A DNA stretch of 64,000 bases, taken from positions 1-64,000 of the forward strand of contig CALUOK010000001.1 in assembly GCA_944322255.1 (NCBI GenBank), in the 5' to 3' direction. This document shows, piece by piece, positions 46,813 through 61,221 of this stretch. A program made the translations under genes and the position numbers. The stretch is from Candidatus Methanomethylophilaceae archaeon. GTDB lineage: Archaea; Thermoplasmatota; Thermoplasmata; Methanomassiliicoccales; Methanomethylophilaceae. The stretch's first letter is position 1. Every line of letters begins with the position of its first letter. The notes under the pieces were generated by a model. That model saw only the letters and a program-made list of their open reading frames with translations. It ran no database searches and was not told the origin of the DNA.

Positions 46813-46941
46813 TAGGTAAAGGAGGAAACATAGATCGGCCACAAAGCCGAGACTTCCCTGCAAAAATCCCGAACTACTCATTATATTTAAAGGAAACTGT
46901 CCAATTTGAGGAATGGTAGCAGGATCTTCGAAGCATCGGCC

Positions 46942-46969
46942 TTATAAACGGTTATAAAGCGGTTATAAA
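46942..46969. repeat. Three ttataaa repeats spaced 10-11 bp
   Basis: ttataaa occurs at 46942, 46952 and 46963, each in the context cggttataaagc, close to one helical turn apart. The spacer 46813-47013 is convergent (3' ends on both sides), so these are not obvious promoters of either gene. They lie just past the terminator of the GH3-like gene when read on the minus strand. Confidence 0.6.
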
Positions 46970-46977
46970 GGGGTTTC

Positions 46978-47000
46978 CGCCCCCGATCCGGACGGGGGCG
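46978..47000 (-). terminator. Hairpin at the end of the ligase/exporter operon
   Basis: CGCCCCC and GGGGGCG form a 7-bp stem around a nine-base loop, 14 bp after the stop of the last operon gene (47014) on the minus strand. Confidence 0.6.
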
Positions 47001-47013
47001 ATGTGGATCGGTG

Positions 47014-48717
47014 TCACTGGTCCTCTTCCAGAAGCGCCAGGAAGAACCTCCTCTGCATCTCGTTGCCCAGGATGTGCGGGGGCTTGAGCTGGGACGAGGC
47101 GGTACCCTTGGAGATTGCCAGGTCCCTGTACAGGAGGTACGTCTCGGGCTGCACGTACTTCACGTCCAGCCTGCCGAACAGGCCCTTCTCGAACTTGTAC
47201 CCGTACAGCGGGTTGGTCTCGCACAGGTTGCGGTTGAGCTCGTCGGCGATCTGGTCGCGGGTGAGTCCCTCTGGCAGGTGGTCAGGCTCAAGCAGGTAGA
47301 CGTACCTCAGCGGGTCGCTGGACGCGTCCGGGTAGGCGGAGAAGTCGATGACGTCGAACCCGAGCTTCCTCTCGGTCCTCTCCAGGGCCTCCCTGAGGGC
47401 CACCTCGGTGGTCTTCTCGCCGGTCATGTTGAGCGACTGGTCGATCCTGTACTGGAACTCCAGCATGGGGGTGTTGTTGTGCATCCCTGTGACCTTGAGG
47501 GCGTCCCTCATCCTGTAGCGGTAGAACCCGGAGAAGTTGGTGGTGACAATCTCGTAGGACCTCCCCACCTCCAGCTTGTCCATGGTGACGATGTCGGCGG
47601 GGTCGTCGGTGTCCACGGGGATGAACTCGTAGAACATGCTGTCCGGGACCACGACGGCGTTGAAGTCGTCCATGGCCAGTGGGGTGGTGAACAGACCCTC
47701 CGAGGCGGTGACCCCGGGGAACAGGTACCTGAAGCCGTCCCCTGCGTACTTCTCCTTGAGCCTCCTGAGGTAGTCTGCGAAGCCCCCGGTGGAGATGCCG
47801 ATGATCATGACCATCTTCGGCCACAGCTTGGGCATGATGGGCTCGTCGAACCCCTGCTCGAAGATGGCCCTGAGCTCGGCGGCCCTCTCGGGCATGGGCC
47901 TGACCTTGGACTCCAGGCTCCTCCTGACCTCGTCGGGCATCTTGATGCTTTCGTCGATGGTCCCCTTCTCGATGTCCTTCACCAGCAGGCGCCACTCCTT
48001 CTCGATGTACTGCATTATCTCCAGGGTCATGCTGATGTAGCTGCACACGGCCATGGTGACGTCTCCGTTCATAAGGGCGAACCTGGCGTGGAGGTAGCGG
48101 GTGTTGGTCTTAACGTCCGGCACCAGGGCCTCCTGGGGGGAGGTCATGAACAGGCCCAGGTGCTCGCCCAGGGACATGATGATTCTCCCGGATATGGCCC
48201 CGTATGTGGCGCCGTTCTTGAGGGTGGTCATGGGGGCCTCGATGAGGTTGATGGTCGGGGGCTCGATCCATCCCAGCCCCATGGCGTTGCACTGTATGGC
48301 GGTGCGCGCCAGCTGGTTGTACCTGTCGAGGACGGCTACGGACTCGTCGGACACCGGGATCCTCTTGGGGTTGCCCATGGTCCCGGAGGACTTGGCGTAG
48401 TGGCCCACATGGTACGAGGTGATCAGGTCGGTCTTCCCCTCCTCGGTCATCCGGTAGATGTACCCGGCGTAGTCGTCGTACATGGTGATGGGCACGCGCC
48501 TCTGGTACTCCTCGATGGAATCGATCTCGGCGAATCCGTACTTGCGGCCGTACTCGGTGTCCTTGTTGTCCCTGAGGATCTTCATCAGGACCTCGGTGTT
48601 GTACTTCATCGGGTCCTTCGTCATCTCCTCCAGCTTCTCGAGGACGGCCTTGCCCTCCATGTAGTTCTTCAGGTTCATCTGCCCCATAGGGGTCAGCTTG
48701 GACGGGTCGATGTCCAT
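47014..48717 (-). CDS. GH3-like acyl-acid amide synthetase, copy 2
   Basis: The 567-residue protein belongs to the GH3 family of acyl-adenylating enzymes, which activate a carboxylic acid with ATP and join it to an amine such as an amino acid. Motifs I can see are the ATP loop YAKSSGTMGNPKRIPVS, GVTASEGLF (motif 2), the YEFIPV strand and YRYRMRDALKV (motif 3), plus a C-terminal domain with LFGRLDVKYVQPETYLLYR. It is the last gene of the seven-gene operon, 9 bp after the STAS gene. It differs clearly from the other GH3-like protein at 53486-55207, so the two probably use different acids or amines. The acid substrate is unknown. Confidence 0.87.
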   Translation of the reverse strand: MDIDPSKLTPMGQMNLKNYMEGKAVLEKLEEMTKDPMKYNTEVLMKILRDNKDTEYGRKYGFAEIDSIEEYQRRVPITMYDDYAGYIYRMTEEGKTDLITSYHVGHYAKSSGTMGNPKRIPVSDESVAVLDRYNQLARTAIQCNAMGLGWIEPPTINLIEAPMTTLKNGATYGAISGRIIMSLGEHLGLFMTSPQEALVPDVKTNTRYLHARFALMNGDVTMAVCSYISMTLEIMQYIEKEWRLLVKDIEKGTIDESIKMPDEVRRSLESKVRPMPERAAELRAIFEQGFDEPIMPKLWPKMVMIIGISTGGFADYLRRLKEKYAGDGFRYLFPGVTASEGLFTTPLAMDDFNAVVVPDSMFYEFIPVDTDDPADIVTMDKLEVGRSYEIVTTNFSGFYRYRMRDALKVTGMHNNTPMLEFQYRIDQSLNMTGEKTTEVALREALERTERKLGFDVIDFSAYPDASSDPLRYVYLLEPDHLPEGLTRDQIADELNRNLCETNPLYGYKFEKGLFGRLDVKYVQPETYLLYRDLAISKGTASSQLKPPHILGNEMQRRFFLALLEEDQ

Positions 48718-48726
48718 CTCCGCACC

Positions 48727-49020
48727 TCACTCCATGGTGAGGACGTCGGTGAAGCCGGTGGCCTCGAGGACCTCCATCACCATGTCCTGCACGTTCCTCA
48801 CGGACATTCCGCCGTGGTTCGCCATCAGCTTGTTGGCGGCCAGCAGCACCCTGAGGCCGGCGCTGGAGATGTACTCCAGTTCCGACAGGTCCAGGACGAG
48901 CCCGTCGGCGACCTGGTTGGACCTGATGTACGAGTCCAGGTCCGGCGCGGTGGCGGTGTCGAGCCTTCCGACAATCCTGAGTACGGTCCTGTTTCCTTCC
49001 TTGCTCTCTCTTATCTCCAT
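48727..49020 (-). CDS. STAS-domain protein (anti-sigma-antagonist-like)
   Basis: The 97-residue protein is a single STAS domain: RTVLRIVGRLDTATAPDLDSY, the central LVLDLSELEYISSAGLRVLLAANKL with the SSAG loop that is phosphorylated in bacterial SpoIIAA-type proteins, and a C-terminal VLEATGFTDVLTM. In bacteria such proteins release sigma factors; archaea have no sigma factor of that type, so here it must act otherwise, for example as a binding or transport-linked switch. A strong ribosome site (GGAGGAAG) precedes the ATG. It sits between the ABC exporter and the second GH3-like gene. Confidence 0.88.
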   Translation of the reverse strand: MEIRESKEGNRTVLRIVGRLDTATAPDLDSYIRSNQVADGLVLDLSELEYISSAGLRVLLAANKLMANHGGMSVRNVQDMVMEVLEATGFTDVLTME

Positions 49021-49040
49021 AGGTCTTCCTCCTTGGCTGT

Positions 49041-50801
49041 TCAGGGCGATGACATGCTACGGTACATGTCCGCATAGAGGCCGTCGAGCTCCATCAGCTG
49101 GTTGTGGGAGCCCACCTCCTTAATGTCCCCGTCCTTCATGAAAATTATCTTGTCGGCGTTGCGGATGGTGAACAGCCTGTGGGCGATGATGAACGTGGTC
49201 CTGCCCTCCATCATCCCCTCCATGGCCTTGGTCACCAGGGCCTCGGTCCTGGTGTCCATGTTCGACGTCGCCTCATCGAGTATCAGTATGTGCGGGTCCG
49301 CCAGGACCGCGCGGGCGAGGACCAGGAGCTGCTTCTCCCCCACGGAGAGCTGCGAGTTCTCCTCGCTTATGTACGTGTCGTATCCGTCCGGCAGGACGTC
49401 TATTATGGAGTCGCATCCCACGGTCCTCGCCGCCTGGACGACCTCCTCGCGGGTGGCGCCCTCCTTTCCGTAGGCGATGTTGTCCGCTATGGTCCCCTCG
49501 AACACCCAGGAGTCCTGCAGGACCATGCCGAACGCCCTCCTGAGCCCGTCGCGGTTGATGCCGCGCGTGCTGGTGCCGTCGACCTCGATGGTCCCCCCGT
49601 CGATCTCGTAGAACCTCATCAGGAGGTTGATGACGGTGGTCTTCCCGGCGCCGGACGGTCCCACTATGGCTACCACGGAGCCGGGTTCCACGTCGAACGA
49701 CACGTCCCTGAAGAGCGTCCTTTCCGGCGTGTAGCCGAATGTGACGTCGCGGAACCCGACCCTTCCCTCCACCTTCGAAACGTCCAGTCCGGGGAGGTCG
49801 CTCTCGTCGGGCTCCTCTTCCTCGTCCAGGATCTCGAACAGCCTCTCCACCGCCGCGAACCCGGACTGCACCTGGTTCATGCCGGAGGACGCGGACTGCA
49901 GCGGGCCGCTCAGCATCTGGCCGTAGAGCAGGAAGGCTGTGAACCCTCCCAGCGTCAGCGACCCGTCGATGATCATGTACGCCCCGAAGATGGAGACGCA
50001 GATGTAGCCGATGTTGTTGACTATCAGGGTGACCGGCATGATGAACCCGGAGGCGAACTTGGACCTGACATACGCCTTGTGGAACCTGCCGTTGATCTCC
50101 GCGAACCTCTCCTCGGAGACATCCTCCATGCCGTAGGCCTTCACCAGGGTGTGGTTGTTCAGCACGTCCCCCATGAAGCCGTTCAGCTCCCCCACGGTGC
50201 TCTGCTGCAGCTTGAACCCCTTCTTCGTCTTCTTGGTGATGAACCTCATCAGCAGGAAGGACACGGGCATGAGCACCACATAGATGATCGCCAACAGGGG
50301 GTTGACGACGAGCATCATGATCAGGATCAGCACTATCAGCAGGATCTGCACCATCAGGTTCAGCAGGTCGCTCTCCAGCAGCGACTCCACGGTGGTTAGG
50401 TCGTTGGTCAGGCGCGAGGATATGTCCCCCGACGAGTGGGTGTCCAGGAACCGGATGGGAACGCGGTTGAGCTTGTTGTGCAGGTTGCGCCTCATCCTCT
50501 GGGTGGCGTTCCTGGAGACCACTATCATGTTCCTGTTGGAGACCATTGTCGCGCAGTACCCGAACACGTACAGCCCGGCTATGACGGCGATGAGCGGGAG
50601 GAACCCGTCGTCCAGATGGGTGTAGCCGTCTGTGACGTACTCCGTCAGCATGTCGATGAGGTTCCCGGCCAGCTTGGGCGCGAATGCCAGGGCCAGGCTT
50701 CCCAGGACCATGACGACCACCGCCGTTACGGCGAGCCTGCGGTCCTTCGCCATGTAGCCGCCGACCCTGCGCAGGGTCCCCCTTGACTTGCGGGCCATCA
50801 C
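49041..50801 (-). CDS. ABC exporter half, ATPase fused to membrane domain (subunit 2)
   Basis: The 586-residue protein has six membrane helices in the first 320 residues and an ATPase domain with Walker A GPSGAGKTT, signature LSVGEKQLLVLARA (Gly-Gly replaced by Val-Gly), Walker B ILILDEATSN with the catalytic Glu, and switch His in IIAHRLFTI. Its ATG overlaps the stop of the next exporter gene by 4 bp (ATGA). Together with subunit 1 it forms a type IV exporter heterodimer of the kind that carries peptides, lipids or drugs out of cells. Confidence 0.92.
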   Translation of the reverse strand: MMARKSRGTLRRVGGYMAKDRRLAVTAVVVMVLGSLALAFAPKLAGNLIDMLTEYVTDGYTHLDDGFLPLIAVIAGLYVFGYCATMVSNRNMIVVSRNATQRMRRNLHNKLNRVPIRFLDTHSSGDISSRLTNDLTTVESLLESDLLNLMVQILLIVLILIMMLVVNPLLAIIYVVLMPVSFLLMRFITKKTKKGFKLQQSTVGELNGFMGDVLNNHTLVKAYGMEDVSEERFAEINGRFHKAYVRSKFASGFIMPVTLIVNNIGYICVSIFGAYMIIDGSLTLGGFTAFLLYGQMLSGPLQSASSGMNQVQSGFAAVERLFEILDEEEEPDESDLPGLDVSKVEGRVGFRDVTFGYTPERTLFRDVSFDVEPGSVVAIVGPSGAGKTTVINLLMRFYEIDGGTIEVDGTSTRGINRDGLRRAFGMVLQDSWVFEGTIADNIAYGKEGATREEVVQAARTVGCDSIIDVLPDGYDTYISEENSQLSVGEKQLLVLARAVLADPHILILDEATSNMDTRTEALVTKAMEGMMEGRTTFIIAHRLFTIRNADKIIFMKDGDIKEVGSHNQLMELDGLYADMYRSMSSP

Positions 50802-52528
50802 TCCCCACCTCCGGCGTAGGACTGGGTGGCGTGGATCTCCCGGTATATCTCGCAGGTCTCCAGCAACTCCTCGTGGGTGCCCTGCTGGACCACGCGGCCC
50901 TTGTCCATGACGACGATGCTGTCCGCATCGCGGATGGTGCTGATCTTCTGGGCGACCATTATGACGGTCTTCCCCTCCAGGCGCCTGCGGATGTTCTCCC
51001 TGACCGTCCTCTCCGTCTTGGCGTCCAGGGCGGAGAAGCAGTCGTCGAATACGTAGACGTCTGCGTCCCTGCAGATGGTCCTCGCCAGGGACAGCCTCTG
51101 CTTCTGGCCGCCGGAGACGTTCATGCCCCCTCTGGCCATCACGGTGTCCAGGCCTTCGGGCATCCTCTCCAGGACCTCCGAGAACATCGTGAGCCTGCAG
51201 GCCTCCTCGGCCTCCTCCCTGGAGACGTCGGAGCCCATGGCGATGTTGGCGTAGACCGTGTCCTCCAGCACCATCGTGCGCTGGCTGGCGTAGGCGATCC
51301 TGGACCTGAGGTCGGAGATGTCCATGTCACGGACGTCCACGCCGCCGAACAGAATCCTCCCGCCGGTGGGGTCGAACAGCCTCGGGACCATCTGCACCAG
51401 GGTGCTCTTGCCGGAGCCGGTGGCCCCGATTATGGCGGTGGTCGCGCCGCGTCTGATGGTCACGTCTATGTCGGAGACGGCGTCCTTGGCCGCCCCGGCG
51501 TATCCGAAGGACACGTCGTCGAACACGACGGCGGCGTCGGAGTCCGCCGAGGGGGAGACCTCCTTCGGGTCGTTCACCACCGTGGGATCGTAGTAGATGA
51601 CCTCCTCCAGCCTGGCCGTGGACACCACGGTCTTGGGCAGGGTGGTGACGATGAACGGCACGATGGCCAGGCAGCTGATGAAGTATGTGACGTACTGGAA
51701 GAACAGGATCATGTCGGAGATGGTGACCAGCCTCTCCTGCAGCTCCACCGAGCCCAGGTAGTAGATCAGGAGCACGGCCAGGTTCATGATCATGAGGGCG
51801 ATGGGCGTGAGGTAGCAGATCTTCAGCGCCGCCTTCGTGGAGTCGTCGCGGAACTCCTCGTTCAGGTCGTTGAACCTGTCGATCTCGTACTGCTGCCTCC
51901 CGAACGCCCTGATGGTGCGGGCGCCCTCGGCCTTCTCCCTCACGAGGGTGTTCAGGGTGTCCAGCTCCTTCTGGACCTCGTTGAACATGGGCATGCTCTG
52001 GCGGCTCTTCAGCACCATCATGGATATGGTGACGACGAACGCCACCACCAACACGGCGCACAGGGTCAGGTTGATCATGGCGGCGGCGATGACCACGGCC
52101 ACGATGACTATCGGCACCAGGAGGGCGTTCCTCAGGGCGTTGAGCATGAAGATCTGGATGCGGGTGGTGTCCGCCGTCAGGCGGGTCATCAGCGTGGACC
52201 CGCCGAACCTGCTGAAGTCCTTCTGGGAGAACGTCATGATCCTCCTGAACAGGTCCCTGCGAACGTCGCAGGTGACGCTGGCGCTCAGGTACGCGCTGAG
52301 GTACGAGACCAGGACTATCGACAGCCCGTACATCAGGGTCATGGCGATCATCCTGATCCCCGCGTCCCTGATGAAGTCCATGTCCTGGTTCGCCACCCCT
52401 CCGTTCAGGATGTCGTGGGTCTCGGACAGCACCTGCAGCTGCAGGTACACCTGGAGCACCACGAACACCATCAGGACGGCAATCTGCTTCCAGTAGGGTG
52501 CGACGTAGTCCTTGAGGAAGCGCCTCAT
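50798..52528 (-). CDS. ABC exporter half, ATPase fused to membrane domain (subunit 1)
   Basis: The 576-residue protein has six membrane helices, then Walker A GATGSGKST, a standard signature VSGGQKQRLSLART, and Walker B VYVFDDCFSALD in which the catalytic Glu is Asp. The pair therefore has one full and one degenerate ATP site, the usual mark of heterodimeric exporters such as TM287/288. The switch region VAQKIST also lacks the usual histidine. It lies 37 bp after the ATP-grasp gene in the same operon. Confidence 0.92.
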   Translation of the reverse strand: MRRFLKDYVAPYWKQIAVLMVFVVLQVYLQLQVLSETHDILNGGVANQDMDFIRDAGIRMIAMTLMYGLSIVLVSYLSAYLSASVTCDVRRDLFRRIMTFSQKDFSRFGGSTLMTRLTADTTRIQIFMLNALRNALLVPIVIVAVVIAAAMINLTLCAVLVVAFVVTISMMVLKSRQSMPMFNEVQKELDTLNTLVREKAEGARTIRAFGRQQYEIDRFNDLNEEFRDDSTKAALKICYLTPIALMIMNLAVLLIYYLGSVELQERLVTISDMILFFQYVTYFISCLAIVPFIVTTLPKTVVSTARLEEVIYYDPTVVNDPKEVSPSADSDAAVVFDDVSFGYAGAAKDAVSDIDVTIRRGATTAIIGATGSGKSTLVQMVPRLFDPTGGRILFGGVDVRDMDISDLRSRIAYASQRTMVLEDTVYANIAMGSDVSREEAEEACRLTMFSEVLERMPEGLDTVMARGGMNVSGGQKQRLSLARTICRDADVYVFDDCFSALDAKTERTVRENIRRRLEGKTVIMVAQKISTIRDADSIVVMDKGRVVQQGTHEELLETCEIYREIHATQSYAGGGE

Positions 52529-52565
52529 CGCTCCGGCCTCCCTTTTCGGTCCCTTGTGTAGGGGG

Positions 52566-53489
52566 TCATATCAGGCCTTCCCTGTGGAGGATCTTCCTGG
52601 GCATGGAGAAGAAGCGGCGGACAAGCTCCTCGTCCCCCTCCTTCTGGGCCTTGAACACGTAGGAGATCCCGGGGACGGAGTTCACCTCGCACAGGTAGAA
52701 CTCGCCCTCCTCCTCGCCGAACAGGTAGTCGATGCTGCCGGTCTTCAGCCCGAAGGCGTCGGCCAGCCTGATGGACTGGTCGATGAGCTCCTGCGGGGGC
52801 TGGTACGGCTCTATGTACCCGCCCTGGTGGAGGTTGGACTTGAAGTCCTTGTCGTTGTGCCTGACGAACGCGTACACGAGCTCGCCGGCTCCGACAACGA
52901 CCCTGAGGTCCCTGCCCTTGGAGGAGGGTATCGCCCTCTGGACGAGGACCTGGTCCCCGAACGGGGCCGCGGTCAGCATGTCCAGTATGCTCTTCAGCTC
53001 ATCCCTGTCCTCCACCAGGCAGACGCCGCGCCCCTGGTAACCGTGCATGACCTTCATGACCAGAGGGAACCCGATCCTCTCCTCGATGGAGTCGATGGTG
53101 GTGTTCTCCCCGACCAGCATGGTGTCGGGTATCTTCAGCTCCGGGACCGCCTGCTTGGCGATCTGGAAGGAGTAGAGCTTGTCCCCCGCCTTCTCCACGG
53201 CGTCGTAGGTGTTGATGCACGGGACCCCCAGGGTCTCGAACATGCGGAGCACCGCCTTCAGCTGGTACGTGTCGCGCTCCTCGGTGGTCATTATGAACAC
53301 GAAGTCCGGGCAGTCGACCATCTCCCCGCGTATGCGGACGTGTCCGTCGAAGCGGTCCATCGCCACGACCTCTATGTCGTTGTAGTCGACGAAGTCCACG
53401 TCAAGGCCCTGGCTGGAGAACAGCGTCCTGGCCATCTCGAACTCCTTCATGAACTGGGAGTAGTCCCCTGTGATCATCAATCCCTTCAT
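52566..53489 (-). CDS. RimK-like ATP-grasp ligase, copy 2
   Basis: The 307-residue protein is an ATP-grasp amide ligase of the RimK type, which uses ATP to make an acyl phosphate and couples it to an amine. Motifs are IGFPLVMKVMHGYQGRGVCLVE, FGDQVLVQRAIPSSKGRDLRV, the loop KSNLHQGGYIEPYQP, and EFYLCEVNSVPG with the metal-binding Glu and Asn. The N-terminal 100 residues form the preATP domain. The start at 53489 overlaps the GH3 gene stop by 4 bp (ATGA). Sequence similarity to the other ATP-grasp gene (55204-56115) is obvious but far from identical. Confidence 0.9.
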   Translation of the reverse strand: MKGLMITGDYSQFMKEFEMARTLFSSQGLDVDFVDYNDIEVVAMDRFDGHVRIRGEMVDCPDFVFIMTTEERDTYQLKAVLRMFETLGVPCINTYDAVEKAGDKLYSFQIAKQAVPELKIPDTMLVGENTTIDSIEERIGFPLVMKVMHGYQGRGVCLVEDRDELKSILDMLTAAPFGDQVLVQRAIPSSKGRDLRVVVGAGELVYAFVRHNDKDFKSNLHQGGYIEPYQPPQELIDQSIRLADAFGLKTGSIDYLFGEEEGEFYLCEVNSVPGISYVFKAQKEGDEELVRRFFSMPRKILHREGLI

Positions 53490-55207
53490 TCCGATGCCTC
53501 CTCTCCTATGATCCATTTGTCCTCGGGCGGGTCCCTGATCCTCGTGTCCAGCTTGACCTGCGAGCGCGGCGCCCCCTCGGATTCGCGTCTGTCGTAAAGG
53601 CTGTCCTGCCATCCGCTCCTCATGAGATGGATCTCAGGACGGTTGAGTGAACCGAGCTTGCGGTTCCTGTCGTAGAGCTCGAACGTCCCCCTCATCGCCG
53701 AGTCCAGCGACCCTGACCAGGCGTCCATGTCCACGGGGCCGTGTCCGGGCTCCAGCTCCACGTACACGTCGTAGCGCTGTGCGGGGACGTTCTCGTAGAT
53801 CTGCACCTGCTTCGCCGTCAGGCCGGCGGATGACGCGGTGGACACCACGACATCCAGCACCCTCGGTGCGGGCAGTTTCTCCTGGGCGATGTTCAGGATC
53901 TCCCTGGATTTGGTCACGAACTCGATGTCCGGCGTGTCGCCGACGAATCCCCTGACCTTCACTATGTCGTGGATCATGTAGCGGTACAGACCGCCGTAGT
54001 TGGTCAGGAGCAGCTCGTACTCGCGGCCCTCCTCCAGCTGGTCGGCGGTCAGCGGCTCGCCCCCCTCGACGGGGACGAACTCGTAAAAGACGGACATGGT
54101 GGCCAGGGTCCCGTAGCCGCACTCCGGGTCGTGGGGGATGCTGATCTTCGCCTCGCTGGCGCCGTATCCGATGTCGTAGTAGACGGTGTTCTCCGGAAGG
54201 AGCGGCCTCACCTTGGCCACGTTGACCCCGACGGATCCCGACAGCCAGAACCTGGCGGACACCAGGTTGGGCCAGTAGCTGCGGGGGATGAAGTTCTCCC
54301 TTCCGGAGTCCAGGATGGCCTGCAGCTCCGCCGCCCTCTCCAGGTGCGGGGACATGTGCCCCTCCGCGGTCCTGCGCTCCGATTCCGACAGCTTCAGGTC
54401 AGCTCTTACGGTCCCGTCCCTCATGTCGCGGATGATCTCCTCGGCGTGCTCCATGGCGTAGCATATCCTGGCGTACAGGCGGGCCGCGTTGTTTGACGTG
54501 ACGATCATGACGTCGTCGTGCATCAGCGCGAAGAGCATGGTCAGGTACATGGTGGCCTCCCCGTCGGCAAGTCCCATGAACTCGCTGGGGTAGGCCAGGC
54601 CCTTGGAGAACGAGGACGACTCGAACGTCTTGCCGGAGGCGAACCCCACGTCTATGCCGCCGGAAGTCTTCCTGTCCGGTATGGCGGAGGTCACGGAGTA
54701 GTAGTGGAAGTTGTCCGCGAACTGCTGGGGGGTCGTCGTCCTGGGGTCCAGGCCCTTCGATCTGATCATCCCGATCACGGACTCGGACGCCATCATGCTC
54801 CTGACCAGGTCCCTGGTCATGTACGCGTTCCTGATCTTGTTGACGGCGTTCTTGGCGTCCCTGCTGACGTCCCCCTCCGGGATGAGCTTCGCCTTCCCGG
54901 TGGTCCCGGATGTGGATATGAAGTAGTCTGTGGGGCCGTGGAAGAGGACGTCTGACTCCCCGTCCGCCATCCTGTCGATGTAGCCGGAGAGGTCCTCGTA
55001 CTCGTTTATCGGAACCGCCCTGCGGAAGTCCTCCAATGTGCGGATCCCGGAGAAACCGTGGTCGCGTCCGTAGGCGCTGTCCCTGGCCGCCTCGACTATC
55101 CCCATCAGGACGGCCTCCTGTGTGCCCCTGCAGTCGGAGCACATCCCCTCCCATCTGGCCAGGGCGTCGCGGTCGCCCAGCGACAGTATCTCCTCGTGCG
55201 GCCTCAA
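53486..55207 (-). CDS. GH3-like acyl-acid amide synthetase, copy 1
   Basis: The 573-residue protein has the GH3 motifs: ATP loop YFISTSGTTGKAKLIPEG, YDIGYGASEAKI (motif 2), FYEFVPVEGG and YRYMIHDIVKV (motif 3). A TTG start at 55207 overlaps the upstream ATP-grasp stop (TTGA) and gives the N-terminus RPHEEILSLGDRDALARWE; a longer frame exists but overlaps the ATP-grasp gene. It is the second gene of the operon. Plant GH3 enzymes conjugate jasmonate or auxin to amino acids; archaeal members have no known substrate. Confidence 0.87.
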   Translation of the reverse strand: MRPHEEILSLGDRDALARWEGMCSDCRGTQEAVLMGIVEAARDSAYGRDHGFSGIRTLEDFRRAVPINEYEDLSGYIDRMADGESDVLFHGPTDYFISTSGTTGKAKLIPEGDVSRDAKNAVNKIRNAYMTRDLVRSMMASESVIGMIRSKGLDPRTTTPQQFADNFHYYSVTSAIPDRKTSGGIDVGFASGKTFESSSFSKGLAYPSEFMGLADGEATMYLTMLFALMHDDVMIVTSNNAARLYARICYAMEHAEEIIRDMRDGTVRADLKLSESERRTAEGHMSPHLERAAELQAILDSGRENFIPRSYWPNLVSARFWLSGSVGVNVAKVRPLLPENTVYYDIGYGASEAKISIPHDPECGYGTLATMSVFYEFVPVEGGEPLTADQLEEGREYELLLTNYGGLYRYMIHDIVKVRGFVGDTPDIEFVTKSREILNIAQEKLPAPRVLDVVVSTASSAGLTAKQVQIYENVPAQRYDVYVELEPGHGPVDMDAWSGSLDSAMRGTFELYDRNRKLGSLNRPEIHLMRSGWQDSLYDRRESEGAPRSQVKLDTRIRDPPEDKWIIGEEASE

Positions 55208-56115
55208 CGGACCATCTCCAGGAGCCTCTTCATGCCGTCCAGGTAGCGCTTGGACACGTCGCCCCTCATGTCGTTCATCAGATAGAGGAGGCCGATGGAG
55301 GAGTTGGCCTCGCACAGGTAGAACTCGTTCTCCTTCTCTCCGAACAGGAAGTCCACGCTGCCCATCCTCATGCCGATGGCATTGGCCAGGCGGACGGCGG
55401 CGTCCTTCAGGTGCTCCGGCGGGTCGAACTCCTCGACGTGGCCGCCCTGGTGGACGTTGGACGTGAAGCTGCCGGGGTTCACGCGCACCAGCGCGTCCAC
55501 GACCTGTCCGCCCAGCACGATCAGGCGCAGGTCCCTGCCCTTGGAGGACATGATGGCCTCCTGGGCGATTAGCTGGTCCCCGAACGGGGCCCCGTTGACG
55601 AGCTTGAGGATGCTCCTCAGCTCCTTCTCCGACTCGGCCAGGGTGATCCCCACGCCTCCCTCTCCGTGGAGGACCTTGAGGACCACCGGGTACCCGACCT
55701 CCCTGCCGATGGCCTCCGGGTCCATGCCCGGGGTCACCAGGATCGTCTTGGGCATCCTCACCTCGGGGATGACCGTGCTTGCGACCTGGAACGTCAGCAG
55801 CTTGTCGGATGTGATGTCCTTGCAGGACGCGGGGTTGATGCAGAGCACCCCCCTGTCCTCAAGCATGCGCAGGAGGGATTTGAGGCGGTACGACTCCGCC
55901 GTGTCCAGCCCGAAGGCCCTGACCGACACGAAGTCCGGGAGAGGCACGCGCTCGCCGTTGGTCAGGAGCATCGTGCCGTCGTCGTCCCCCACCGTCGTGA
56001 CGATGTCCTCGAAGAACATCGGCTCGATCTCGATGCCCGTGAGGGACCTCATCATGGCGACCTCCTTGTCCACGTCGGCCCTCCTCCTGTTGACCAGATA
56101 CACTCCTCTTACCAT
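55204..56115 (-). CDS. RimK-like ATP-grasp ligase, copy 1
   Basis: This 303-residue ATP-grasp ligase is the first gene of the operon. It has YPVVLKVLHGEGGVGITLAE, FGDQLIAQEAIMSSKGRDLRL, the TSNVHQGGHVEEFDPP loop, and NEFYLCEANSSIGLLYL, in which the usual metal-binding Asn of the N-x-S-x-G motif is kept. A strong ribosome site (AGGAGGCG) lies before the ATG at 56115, which makes the 31 extra residues of the longer frame unlikely. The stop overlaps the TTG start of the GH3-like gene. Confidence 0.9.
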   Translation of the reverse strand: MVRGVYLVNRRRADVDKEVAMMRSLTGIEIEPMFFEDIVTTVGDDDGTMLLTNGERVPLPDFVSVRAFGLDTAESYRLKSLLRMLEDRGVLCINPASCKDITSDKLLTFQVASTVIPEVRMPKTILVTPGMDPEAIGREVGYPVVLKVLHGEGGVGITLAESEKELRSILKLVNGAPFGDQLIAQEAIMSSKGRDLRLIVLGGQVVDALVRVNPGSFTSNVHQGGHVEEFDPPEHLKDAAVRLANAIGMRMGSVDFLFGEKENEFYLCEANSSIGLLYLMNDMRGDVSKRYLDGMKRLLEMVR

Positions 56116-56351
56116 CTCGTCGCCTCCTGTTTTGAAAACCATGTGAATCGCGTGATGCCTCCCGCCCCGTGCATCCTCCGGATGGGACCCTCTGCATGGT
56201 CGTCCCATCGGTGCCGGTCGCAGGGTTCGAAGGTCCGTTCGTAAGGTCAGCCTCCCTCATCACGTCTCGCGGCGATGTCCAAAACCCGTGTACCCGAAGG
56301 CCCCATGGCCACCGGTCGACGCTTGGACCACCGTCCGACATGTATCTGTAT

Positions 56352-56361
56352 CCAAAATAAA
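56352..56361 (-). promoter_or_regulatory. TATA box of the ligase/exporter operon
   Basis: Read on the minus strand the sequence is cttttatttt, the only TATA-like box in the 269-bp spacer upstream of the operon. Transcription should start near 56335, giving a leader of about 220 nt before the ATG at 56115. No gene that I trust is in this leader; the open frame from an ATG at 56341 runs into the ATP-grasp gene in another frame. Confidence 0.5.
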
Positions 56362-56384
56362 AGAGGATACGGGGACCGTCCGGT

Positions 56385-58338: not shown

Positions 58339-61221
58339 ATGAACTCGAAAGCGTTAATGGCGGCCGTACTGGCCGTCCTGATCACGTTTTCGCTGGGGGT
58401 GGCGGTTGCCTCGGACGGTTCCGAGGCGGCCCCGTCCGATGCGGAAACCATCGGCGAGGCGACGGAGTTCGCCGCCGGTGACATCTACGAACTCGGCGGG
58501 AAGAGCCTCGTCTTCACAGGCGACGGCCGTCTCGTCTTCAACAGCGGCTCCATACTGTCCGTGAGCGACAGCGTATACCTCGAGGGCTCCGGGACAATCC
58601 TGGCCCTCATGCCCGGATCCACGGTCCTGTTCATGGGCTCACCGTACGTGATCGCCACGTCTGTGGAGGTCGGACTCAACGGTTCCATGGATTTCGTGCT
58701 CGACATGGACATGACGACTCTGAGTGGCTCCGTGAGCATGGACATCAGCGACGGAGGCGAGGTCTCCATGATGGACGGGATCACCAGGGGAGGCCCCGGG
58801 AAGGAGGTCGACGCCCAGGTGAGCATGGGCGAAAGCGGCATGGCCGTCTCGATGAGCATGAACATACCCTACACAAGCGGCACGCTCTCCAGCAGCATCA
58901 TCTCCTCGTTCTATCCCGAGATAACGCTGCCGTTCGAATCCGTGTACGCGGAGCAGACCGGCCTGGCCCTCGAGATGAGGTTCTCCAAGGACGCGGCCAC
59001 CGGCGCCGTCAACATTACCGACATCGGCGGCAGCGGCCCCGCCTTCATGGAGGTCGACTCCATGCTGTACAGGATCCCCGAAATGGTCGAGATGAGAATG
59101 GACGACCTGAGGATGACGTTCGACCTCGAGACGGATGGCGCCTCGACCATCGTGCCCGTGGGCCTGCAGGTCGGCTCGGCCGACGCCACCATGACATACG
59201 GCGGAGTCACCTTCTCGGCGGAACTCCGCGACCTGAACACCGACCTGAGGATCTCCGCGGGAGCCGACGGGTCCGTCTCCATCGACGGAGGCTCCGACGG
59301 AGCTCCGTTCGAGATCGGCGTGGGCTCCGTCTCGATGAGCATCGACCAGATCACGGACGTCTCCGACATCGCCATGACAGCCTCGCTGACCGATGCGAGA
59401 CTCACCGTGTCCCTGGACATCGCGACCCTGCAGTCCGTTCCAGACATCGATGTCACGCTGGAGTCCGGCTCCGCCGGGGTCGGATACACCGTGTCCACGG
59501 AAGGCGTCGTGACCACCGCCGGCGCATCCGCGCAGGGATTCCGCGTCTCTCTCGAAGTCGGAGCGGACGCCATCGGTCTCGAGGCCTCCCTGGACTCGGC
59601 AAGCGCCGACCTGACCGCCATCGGAAGCCCCACGGCCATCGATGCGGAGATCAGGGACGTGAAGGTCGATGCCTCGATAACCTCGGCATCCCAGGTCGGC
59701 ACCCTGACCGTCGGATCCGTGTCCATGAACGTCCAGGCCCCCGTCGGGGCATCCTCTTACCAGAAGCGCACGATGGACATGCAGGGCATCGAGGCCCAGG
59801 TGTCCGGAGCGACCGTCTCGTCTATGAAGGTCGCCAGTCTGTCCTCGAGCGGCCCCGGCGTAGCGGTCGACAGCATATCCGAGACCGTCTCCGGCCTCGA
59901 GATCTCGATGGGGGACGTCCCATCCATCTTGTTCGACTCCTACCGCGCCGACGTGAAGGGCTTGGACGGAAGCGACGGATACGTAGAGGCCACGGATGTC
60001 GGCACCACGCAGGAAGGCGGCATCACCGGAAGCTACGTCTACGCCCTCGGACACAACACCAGCAGGGCGCTGAACGGCAGTCTCTCGTTCGTCTCCTCCG
60101 GCATCGTCGTCTACGACGGCATGACCGTGGAGTTCCGCGACAGCTATGTTGGGGACGTGCAGATCCTCGGCGGAACGGTCAACGGAACCGCGTACGTCTG
60201 CGGAGGCGGCTACCACACCGTGGCAGACCATGAGAGCAGCTACACGGTCGACGGCTACGGCGGATTCGACGCGGCCTTCGTGTTCGAGGACTCCCGCATC
60301 GTGTCCGTCGAGGCGACCCTCTGCTCCGACATGTACCTCGAGGACCACTTTACCGAGATCGAGCCCTATGACCCCGCCAGCGGCGGAGTCCCGTACGAGC
60401 TCGACGACAACGGCGACGCGGTCTTCACCGACCTGAGCGGCGGCACCATCATGGTCCCCGTCGGGCTCGCGACCTTCACCCTGACCGTCGACGGAACCGC
60501 TGGAGAGTACCAGTACGGGACCACCGTCACCGTTGAGGCGAGCACCACCCAGGCGGACATGGTATTCGCCGGATGGTTCGACGGAATCCAGATCGCTATG
60601 CCCGGAGGCGACTACTACGTCAGGTACGATGCCGAGATCCAGGAGCTCTGGGCCCCGGCGGACTACGACGTCGTCTCCGTCGAGGGCGGACTGTCCGTGG
60701 ACATCGGTGAGAACGGGGTGTTCTTCGTAGCCGATGTGTCGACGCTCCTGGGAGCCAGGAACGCCGCACCGGTCACCGAGCTGACCGTGACCAACAGCGT
60801 CGGGTCCGTTACCGTGGACCTTGAGGAGGTCGGTTCGGGATCCCTGATGGTCATGATGTCCGAGATGGGCCAGACCCCTGTCGGATACATCAACGACGCC
60901 GCATCCGGCTCGAAGATGTACATGATGCAGGCGTCCACGCTGTCCCCGGACGGGGAGTCCTCCCCGCTGGAGTCCAAGGTCTCCTTCGCCGAGAGCGCCC
61001 CGGTGTCGGGAATCACGTCCTACGGACAGAGGATCGACATGGCGCCGACCACCGGCGACCAGTACCAGGTGGGCTACGGCGAGGGCGTCGTGGCCTACGC
61101 GCTCGGAGAACCTGACGGCGGAAGCGGCGGCTCCATGCTGATCATCGGCGCAGTGGTCGTGGTCATCCTGGTGGTGGCCGTGGTGGCCGTAGTCATGATG
61201 AGGCGCAGGAGCACAGCCTGA
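58339..61221 (+). CDS. Large repetitive surface protein of unknown family
   Basis: The 960-residue protein has a signal peptide (MNSKALMAAVLAVLITFSLG), a long Ser/Ala/Gly/Asp-rich ectodomain and a C-terminal membrane helix (MLIIGAVVVVILVVAVVAVV) with a basic tail. The ectodomain repeats weak beta patterns such as VSMSIDQITDVSDI, VDASITSASQVGTL and VGSVSMNVQAP over residues about 180-560, so it is probably a long beta-solenoid. Near residue 715-770 is a segment like a Listeria-Bacteroides repeat (FTLTVDGTAGEYQYGTTV, FAGWFDG). It has few Cys. A TATA-like cattttaaa lies about 60 bp upstream. Its partner or ligand is unknown. Confidence 0.8.
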   Translation: MNSKALMAAVLAVLITFSLGVAVASDGSEAAPSDAETIGEATEFAAGDIYELGGKSLVFTGDGRLVFNSGSILSVSDSVYLEGSGTILALMPGSTVLFMGSPYVIATSVEVGLNGSMDFVLDMDMTTLSGSVSMDISDGGEVSMMDGITRGGPGKEVDAQVSMGESGMAVSMSMNIPYTSGTLSSSIISSFYPEITLPFESVYAEQTGLALEMRFSKDAATGAVNITDIGGSGPAFMEVDSMLYRIPEMVEMRMDDLRMTFDLETDGASTIVPVGLQVGSADATMTYGGVTFSAELRDLNTDLRISAGADGSVSIDGGSDGAPFEIGVGSVSMSIDQITDVSDIAMTASLTDARLTVSLDIATLQSVPDIDVTLESGSAGVGYTVSTEGVVTTAGASAQGFRVSLEVGADAIGLEASLDSASADLTAIGSPTAIDAEIRDVKVDASITSASQVGTLTVGSVSMNVQAPVGASSYQKRTMDMQGIEAQVSGATVSSMKVASLSSSGPGVAVDSISETVSGLEISMGDVPSILFDSYRADVKGLDGSDGYVEATDVGTTQEGGITGSYVYALGHNTSRALNGSLSFVSSGIVVYDGMTVEFRDSYVGDVQILGGTVNGTAYVCGGGYHTVADHESSYTVDGYGGFDAAFVFEDSRIVSVEATLCSDMYLEDHFTEIEPYDPASGGVPYELDDNGDAVFTDLSGGTIMVPVGLATFTLTVDGTAGEYQYGTTVTVEASTTQADMVFAGWFDGIQIAMPGGDYYVRYDAEIQELWAPADYDVVSVEGGLSVDIGENGVFFVADVSTLLGARNAAPVTELTVTNSVGSVTVDLEEVGSGSLMVMMSEMGQTPVGYINDAASGSKMYMMQASTLSPDGESSPLESKVSFAESAPVSGITSYGQRIDMAPTTGDQYQVGYGEGVVAYALGEPDGGSGGSMLIIGAVVVVILVVAVVAVVMMRRRSTA

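Follow-up and report, generated by a model that had tools for sequence, protein, structure and literature searches.

Enzymes of the GH3 family form an acyl adenylate and then an amide, and RimK-type ATP-grasp enzymes reach an amide through an acyl phosphate. The plant GH3 enzymes GH3.12/PBS3, JAR1 and GH3.6 use AMP-forming acid activation in hormone metabolism, outside export operons, and the ATP-grasp ligases RimK, MptN, CofF and LysX add amino acids via acyl phosphates. Among prokaryotes, the GH3-type enzyme OlsH of Singulisphaera acidiphila uses ATP to join a carboxylic acid to an amino acid in an amide, without CoA or a carrier protein, and has the hydrolase-fold protein OlsI as its partner (PMC12493201). 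Gut Clostridia also make fatty-acid amides with the free-standing enzymes of OaaA/OaaACP/OaaC clusters, which rely on carrier-protein-dependent adenylation and condensation, with GH3 and ATP-grasp enzymes not mentioned (PMC13142362). On the regulatory side, the SpoIIAA/SpoIIAB/SpoIIE switch joins a STAS antagonist with an SSAGLR motif, a HATPase_c_2 kinase and a SpoIIE phosphatase. Archaea are not known to have a bona fide sigma factor, and partner-switch proteins have been noted in methanogens without sigma factors (PMC2686161). In 2010, Methanobrevibacter ruminantium was described as having non-ribosomal peptide synthetase (NRPS) loci that also encode serine phosphatases, an anti-sigma antagonist and MatE (PMC2812497), so regulators of this type had already been tied to biosynthesis in a methanogen.

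Here we analysed a 64,000-nucleotide stretch (the window) of a Methanomethylophilaceae-type methanogen, a group from which its gut habitat is inferred. On its minus strand lies an operon with two GH3 enzymes, two ATP-grasp ligases, two ABC half-transporters and a STAS protein. The operon resembles OlsH and the plant enzymes in its predicted GH3 chemistry; unlike it, OlsH is found without ATP-grasp ligases, an ABC exporter or STAS, and the plant GH3s are only about 20% identical in fold comparison. It resembles the M. ruminantium mru0068 locus as a probable methanogen biosynthetic locus with an exporter and an anti-sigma antagonist, whereas mru0068 has NRPS and MATE genes, with neither GH3 nor ATP-grasp described (PMC2812497). 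We found no description of this gene combination in the open-licence literature searched, although its parts are of known kinds. The preliminary description, which knew of no pathway with this gene set, thus agrees with that search, the precedent being the methanogen NRPS loci with the same kind of regulator.

Layout and catalytic motifs of the operon

The features are as follows.

55204-56115, minus strand: g1, RimK-like ATP-grasp ligase 1, 303 aa (Pfam RimK 5.7e-27)
53486-55207, minus strand: g2, GH3-type acyl-acid amido synthetase A (GH3A), 573 aa (Pfam GH3 5.1e-60, GH3_M, GH3_C)
52566-53489, minus strand: g3, RimK-like ATP-grasp ligase 2, 307 aa (Pfam RimK 1.9e-28)
50798-52528, minus strand: g4, ABC exporter half 1 (ABC1), degenerate Walker B FDD (ABC_membrane and ABC_tran; motifs)
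49041-50801, minus strand: g5, ABC exporter half 2 (ABC2), canonical Walker B LDE (ABC_membrane and ABC_tran; motifs)
48727-49020, minus strand: g6, stand-alone STAS protein of anti-sigma-antagonist type with SSAGLR motif (Pfam STAS 8.5e-15; alignment)
47014-48717, minus strand: g7, GH3-type acyl-acid amido synthetase B (GH3B), 567 aa (Pfam GH3 7.8e-71)
46978-47000, minus strand: G+C-rich hairpin after the last stop codon, 8 pairs, fold -18.5 kcal/mol, possible weak terminator
56354-56362, minus strand: TTTTATTTT, possible archaeal TATA box, some 240 bases upstream of the first ATG
46899-56384, no strand assigned: approximate extent of the inserted unit (blastn of the empty-site locus L185 against the window; four empty sites)

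A Pfam profile search found all seven genes head to tail at 47014-56115, and the matches (RimK; GH3, GH3_M and GH3_C; ABC_membrane and ABC_tran; STAS) bore out the order first proposed, ATP-grasp, GH3-like, ATP-grasp, ABC, ABC, STAS, GH3-like. The junctions of -4, -4, +37, -4, +20 and +9 bases were exact on re-measurement; the start codon of g2 is a TTG that falls within a TTGA overlap, and that of g5 is GTG. The proposed control signals fared less well. The TTTTATTTT stretch has a similar counterpart in the same place in a sister genome and makes a putative promoter, weaker than the TATA box first claimed; the terminal hairpin exists, yet its stability is no better than that of shuffled sequence (z -0.95) and no T run adjoins it. 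Scans for sigma-70 promoters and T-run terminators gave near-chance numbers, and Rfam had no matches in the window region. The G+C content of the operon equals that of its surroundings, so that composition gives no sign of recent transfer. Near the operon, window positions 58339-61221 encode a 960-aa probable surface protein with a signal-like start and a C-terminal hydrophobic stretch, which has a 33% identical relative in genome G099.

Both g2 and g7 matched the GH3 N-terminal, middle and C-terminal domains (PF03321, PF23571, PF23572) full-length and above the cut-offs. The three GH3 nucleotide-binding motifs (S/T-S-G-T; the S-E of motif II; GxYRY..D) are present in g2 as in g7, and the columns invariant over 12 aligned rows were S111, G112, G115, E340, G397, Y399-Y401 and D405. 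The nearest solved structure to g2 was GH3.12/PBS3 (3e-29), which g7 also matched over its full length (4e-44). A structure prediction of GH3A was of low confidence (pLDDT 58), and its fold matches, which were GH3 enzymes, added little.

Similarly, g1 and g3, which are 41% identical to each other, carry the RimK-like ATP-grasp domain (PF08443) with intact ATP-grasp motifs in the alignment. The solved structure nearest to g1 was 7qyr, a probable alpha-L-glutamate ligase (1e-19). They share the fold family of RimK, MptN, CofF and LysX, but scored below the TIGR00768 cut-off (128.5 and 141.6 against 143.4) and far below those of the MptN, CofF, LysX and RimK models. Moreover, the Arg of the RimK motif SNLHRGG is replaced by Gln in all eight archaeal ATP-grasp copies, which suggests a substrate other than that of RimK. 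In genome G042, two adjacent RimK-like ATP-grasp genes lie downstream of an ABC ATPase gene (L120, contig 320, 3344-5004), and the single GH3 gene is cut by a contig end.

The exporter genes encode two half-transporters with one degenerate site (FDD in g4, LDE in g5), as in heterodimeric exporters, and ABC1 keeps FDD in the cassette relatives wherever the motif is readable.

Spread of the cassette in archaea and Clostridia

Of the 147 genomes of the order, 6 have a GH3 match that passes the Pfam cut-off; of the 31 in the genus, 4 have the whole operon (the window's, G098, G074 and G100), so the cassette is dispensable. The order and the short junctions are retained in all four. The G098 proteins are 84-96% identical to those of the window, and pN/pS between the window and G098, the nearest operon-bearing genome, is 0.09-0.26 for all seven genes, indicating purifying selection on each of them. 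With the identical order in three further genomes and these low ratios, the arrangement is not due to chance. The preliminary description had proposed a search for the same order in relatives and held that scattered genes would speak against it; we found the unit kept in four archaeal genomes and the gene set in three Clostridia genomes.

The operon occupies two sites. At site 1 (window and G098) its neighbours are a gene for a small membrane protein on one side and, on the other, a further membrane-protein gene adjoining HMG-CoA reductase; this site is empty in G076, G100, G074 and G099, where the flanking genes stand close together (about 140 bases apart in G076). At site 2 (G074 and G100) it is flanked by a kinase gene and a tRNA-Tyr gene with an intron, a place taken in the window's genome by a further STAS gene and a pair of small membrane proteins. 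No direct or inverted repeats of at least 10 bases were found joining both ends of the inserted unit, which therefore has no transposon-like ends. Judged from these occupied and empty sites, the operon is a mobile cassette with two chromosomal positions and no recognisable mobility genes. The stretch from the kinase to the intron-bearing tRNA-Tyr gene (L079:7023-9515, L017:5601-15600) is a variable site whose cargo differs among genomes of the genus.

Archaea of the host type read TAG as pyrrolysine in methylamine methyltransferases. GH3A of G074 (L017:6898-8622) has an in-frame TAG at codon 209, where relatives have a Glu codon, and a PYLIS_2 element is present in L018; the TAG may be read through as pyrrolysine or may be a lesion.

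GH3 enzymes of this kind are uncommon in Clostridia (8 of 394 and 22 of 391 sampled genomes). Three of these genomes carry the archaeal gene set in a rearranged order, with proteins 27-48% identical to the archaeal ones: G632 and G828 (L156, L157) have STAS, GH3A, GH3B, ABC1, ABC2 and two ATP-grasp genes, and G722 (L160) has the same row with STAS absent. Variants were also identified. In G559 (L166) the ATP-grasp pair is replaced, giving GH3B, GH3A, an A-PCP-C NRPS-like protein, ABC1 and ABC2, and a locus of G244 (L121) starts like L166 and retains only an ABC remnant. In G808, G559 and G593 the order is ABC1, ABC2, ATP-grasp, RimK-like and one or two GH3 genes, the pair being replaced in L162/L165/L167 by RimK and another ATP-grasp type. 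The STAS gene is missing from the variants as from L160, so it is not essential to the cassette core. All nine GH3A-clade genes found adjoin a GH3B gene or share an operon with one. Plasmid relatives of GH3A were distant GH3s only, the best full-length match being 26% identical.

Single GH3 genes adjoin SpoIIE in L124, L125, L126, L127 and L174, and several of these loci also have STAS, kinase or MATE genes. Up to 4 kb from Clostridia GH3 genes we counted 5 STAS, 5 SpoIIE and 7 HATPase matches, and none in slightly more sequence farther off, an enrichment that is significant but rests on few, non-independent cases; for ABC, ATP-grasp and MATE within the same distance it was not significant. 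Other Clostridia GH3 loci (L024-L027, L122, L123, L158, L159, L161, L163, L168-L173) were set aside as lacking the cassette. Two Clostridia encode giant proteins of about 2,400 aa with signal-like starts, placed between the GH3-SpoIIE genes and an ABC gene (L125:1166-8383, L126:11645-18922), and that of L125 has Calx-beta domains.

In the GH3 tree, the GH3A genes of archaeal and Clostridia cassettes form one clade (100/99). The archaeal GH3B genes were placed among Clostridia GH3. Long branches are flagged in this tree and leave the exact placing unsure. The ABC1 and ABC2 trees agree with each other, grouping the archaea with L166, then G632/G828/G722, then L162/L165. Since GH3 and ABC trees alike mix archaeal and Clostridia cassettes, and the two ABC trees agree, the cassette appears to have crossed domains, and the pattern fits transfer and inheritance of its core as a unit.

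The STAS protein and its likely partners

SpoIIAA-type proteins are phosphorylated at their SSAGLR motif. g6 scored 62.3 bits against the anti-sigma-antagonist model TIGR00377, above the cut-off of 53.45, and its SSAGLR is conserved, so it is best read as a partner-switch antagonist. In two relatives (L017 and L018), an RsbW-type HATPase_c_2 kinase gene is the eighth gene of the operon, +7 and -4 bases after g7, and is convergent with a gene for a membrane SpoIIE phosphatase. Given these neighbours, g6 is probably the antagonist in a switch of STAS, RsbW-type kinase and SpoIIE phosphatase, not a part of export. In L017 and L018 the likeness to SpoIIAA/SpoIIAB/SpoIIE extends to all three components, but the genes stand here in archaea without a known sigma factor and are linked to ligases and an exporter.

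The window's genome has one SpoIIE gene, convergent with an RsbW-type kinase gene at L079:7023-7436 on contig 11, apart from the operon. That locus has a STAS gene of its own (L079:9092-9352), and a similar SpoIIE-kinase-STAS locus (L090) occurs in G076, which lacks the GH3 operon; a pairing of g6 with the contig 11 kinase would therefore be a guess.

SpoIIE was found in 37 of the 147 genomes of the order. Among the neighbourhoods read, eight lie by an NRPS ending in a reductase domain, three by LuxC/LuxE-type genes with MATE, two by an ABC pair and three (L017, L018, L019) by GH3, the rest being without such a neighbour. In L019 the order is EamA, GH3, STAS, MATE fused to HATPase, and SpoIIE fused to HATPase. 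In view of the M. ruminantium loci, it is the GH3/ATP-grasp/ABC set that is a new partner for such regulators. In eight genomes of the order, NRPS genes with a terminal reductase directly adjoin SpoIIE, an RsbW-type kinase and mostly STAS, at L085, L091, L098, L099, L102, L104, L105 and L106. On contig 4 of the window's genome (L083, about 50.7-57.9 kb), a STAS-HATPase fusion accompanies an 819-aa LuxC/AMP-binding fusion and a MATE transporter fused to HATPase_c_2, and L082, L101 and L103 are alike.

Proposed product and competing explanations

The preliminary description had proposed synthesis and export of an amide or peptide. This is still the best reading, though the description had missed the probable regulatory role of STAS and the Clostridia cassettes. 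With moderate confidence, we propose a biosynthesis-and-export cassette for a small acyl-amide or short peptide, independent of carrier proteins, exported by the ABC pair and controlled by a partner switch. The two GH3 enzymes would convert a carboxylic acid to its adenylate and join this to an amine or an amino acid, and the two ATP-grasp enzymes would form an acyl phosphate from a carboxylate and attach another amine or amino acid. The combined product would be a short acyl-amide or acyl-peptide that needs neither carrier proteins nor a ribosomal precursor. The heterodimeric exporter, in which one ATP site is degenerate and the other predicted to work, would move the product out, and g6, as a phosphorylatable antagonist in a SpoIIAA/SpoIIAB/SpoIIE-like switch, would link production or export to a signal received at the membrane phosphatase. 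The sequences themselves show the gene set, the intact catalytic motifs, the conservation of the unit, its common ancestry with the Clostridia cassettes and, in relatives, its linkage to kinase and phosphatase genes. From these we infer a single product for the four ligases, the order of the steps, the substrates, export of that same product and control by the switch. The exporter is retained where the peptide-bond-forming enzymes are swapped (L166, L162/L165/L167), which favours a small-molecule product, and the finding of an NRPS-like protein in place of the ATP-grasp pair, with GH3s and exporter unchanged, speaks for all of these enzymes forming bonds in one small molecule.

An amino-lipid or envelope pathway, in which GH3 would make N-acyl amino acids, ATP-grasp would extend the head group and the MsbA-like ABC pair would flip the lipid into the membrane instead of secreting a soluble product, seems unlikely to us. 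In its favour, OlsH, an N-acyl-ornithine synthetase (PMC12493201), was the one prokaryotic relative of characterised function that turned up, but both GH3s fell far below the OlsH equivalog cut-off (75.1 and 72.8 bits, against 620), with no OlsI-like acyltransferase gene among the seven. Both ABC halves scored best against MsbA-type models, below the cut-off, and the single-GH3 Clostridia locus L025 adjoins a secreted alpha/beta-hydrolase-like gene, in keeping with a lipid. Archaeal membrane lipids are not fatty-acid based, which counts against it.

Slightly less probable again is detoxification, in which an unwanted carboxylic acid (aromatic, bile or similar) would be tagged with amino acids and exported, much as plant GH3s inactivate hormones. 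The nearest solved structures are indeed plant GH3s that conjugate benzoates, auxin or jasmonate to amino acids, and an environmental trait would suit a patchy, mobile cassette in gut species. However, simple tagging needs fewer than four ligases, and the NRPS-like swap in Clostridia resembles biosynthesis. That the ATP-grasp pair modifies a protein or ribosomal peptide, in a RimK/S6-like or graspetide-like manner with GH3 and ABC as part of it, is highly improbable: RimK (5zct, 1e-21) is the nearest solved homologue of g3 and ATP-grasp maturases match weakly (g3 against MvdC, 32 bits, cut-off 425), but the RimK equivalog score falls well short, and the absence of a precursor gene (no gap exceeds 37 bases, and neither the operon nor the sequence upstream of it has a small ORF conserved among the four genomes) and of a C39 peptidase domain on g4 or g5 by Pfam argues against a ribosomal peptide.

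We therefore retain synthesis and export of a small acyl-amide or short peptide. A wider reading is tentative and, in our view, rather doubtful: that paired GH3 and ATP-grasp enzymes form a new, carrier-free class of pathway to a short acyl-peptide, that it was exchanged between Clostridia and gut methanogens, and that the output of the archaeal switch is the enzymes or the exporter, with no sigma factor.

To our knowledge, few natural products of methanogens are known. The gene set common to the archaeon and Clostridia suggests that gut microbes share a natural-product pathway for which there is no description yet. If this is true, gut methanogens and Clostridia would secrete the same type of amide from a common gene set, and the cassette would give metabolomics and in vitro reconstitution a defined target. 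The locus is also a concrete setting for the question of what, in archaea, a SpoIIAA/AB/SpoIIE-type switch acts on (PMC2686161).
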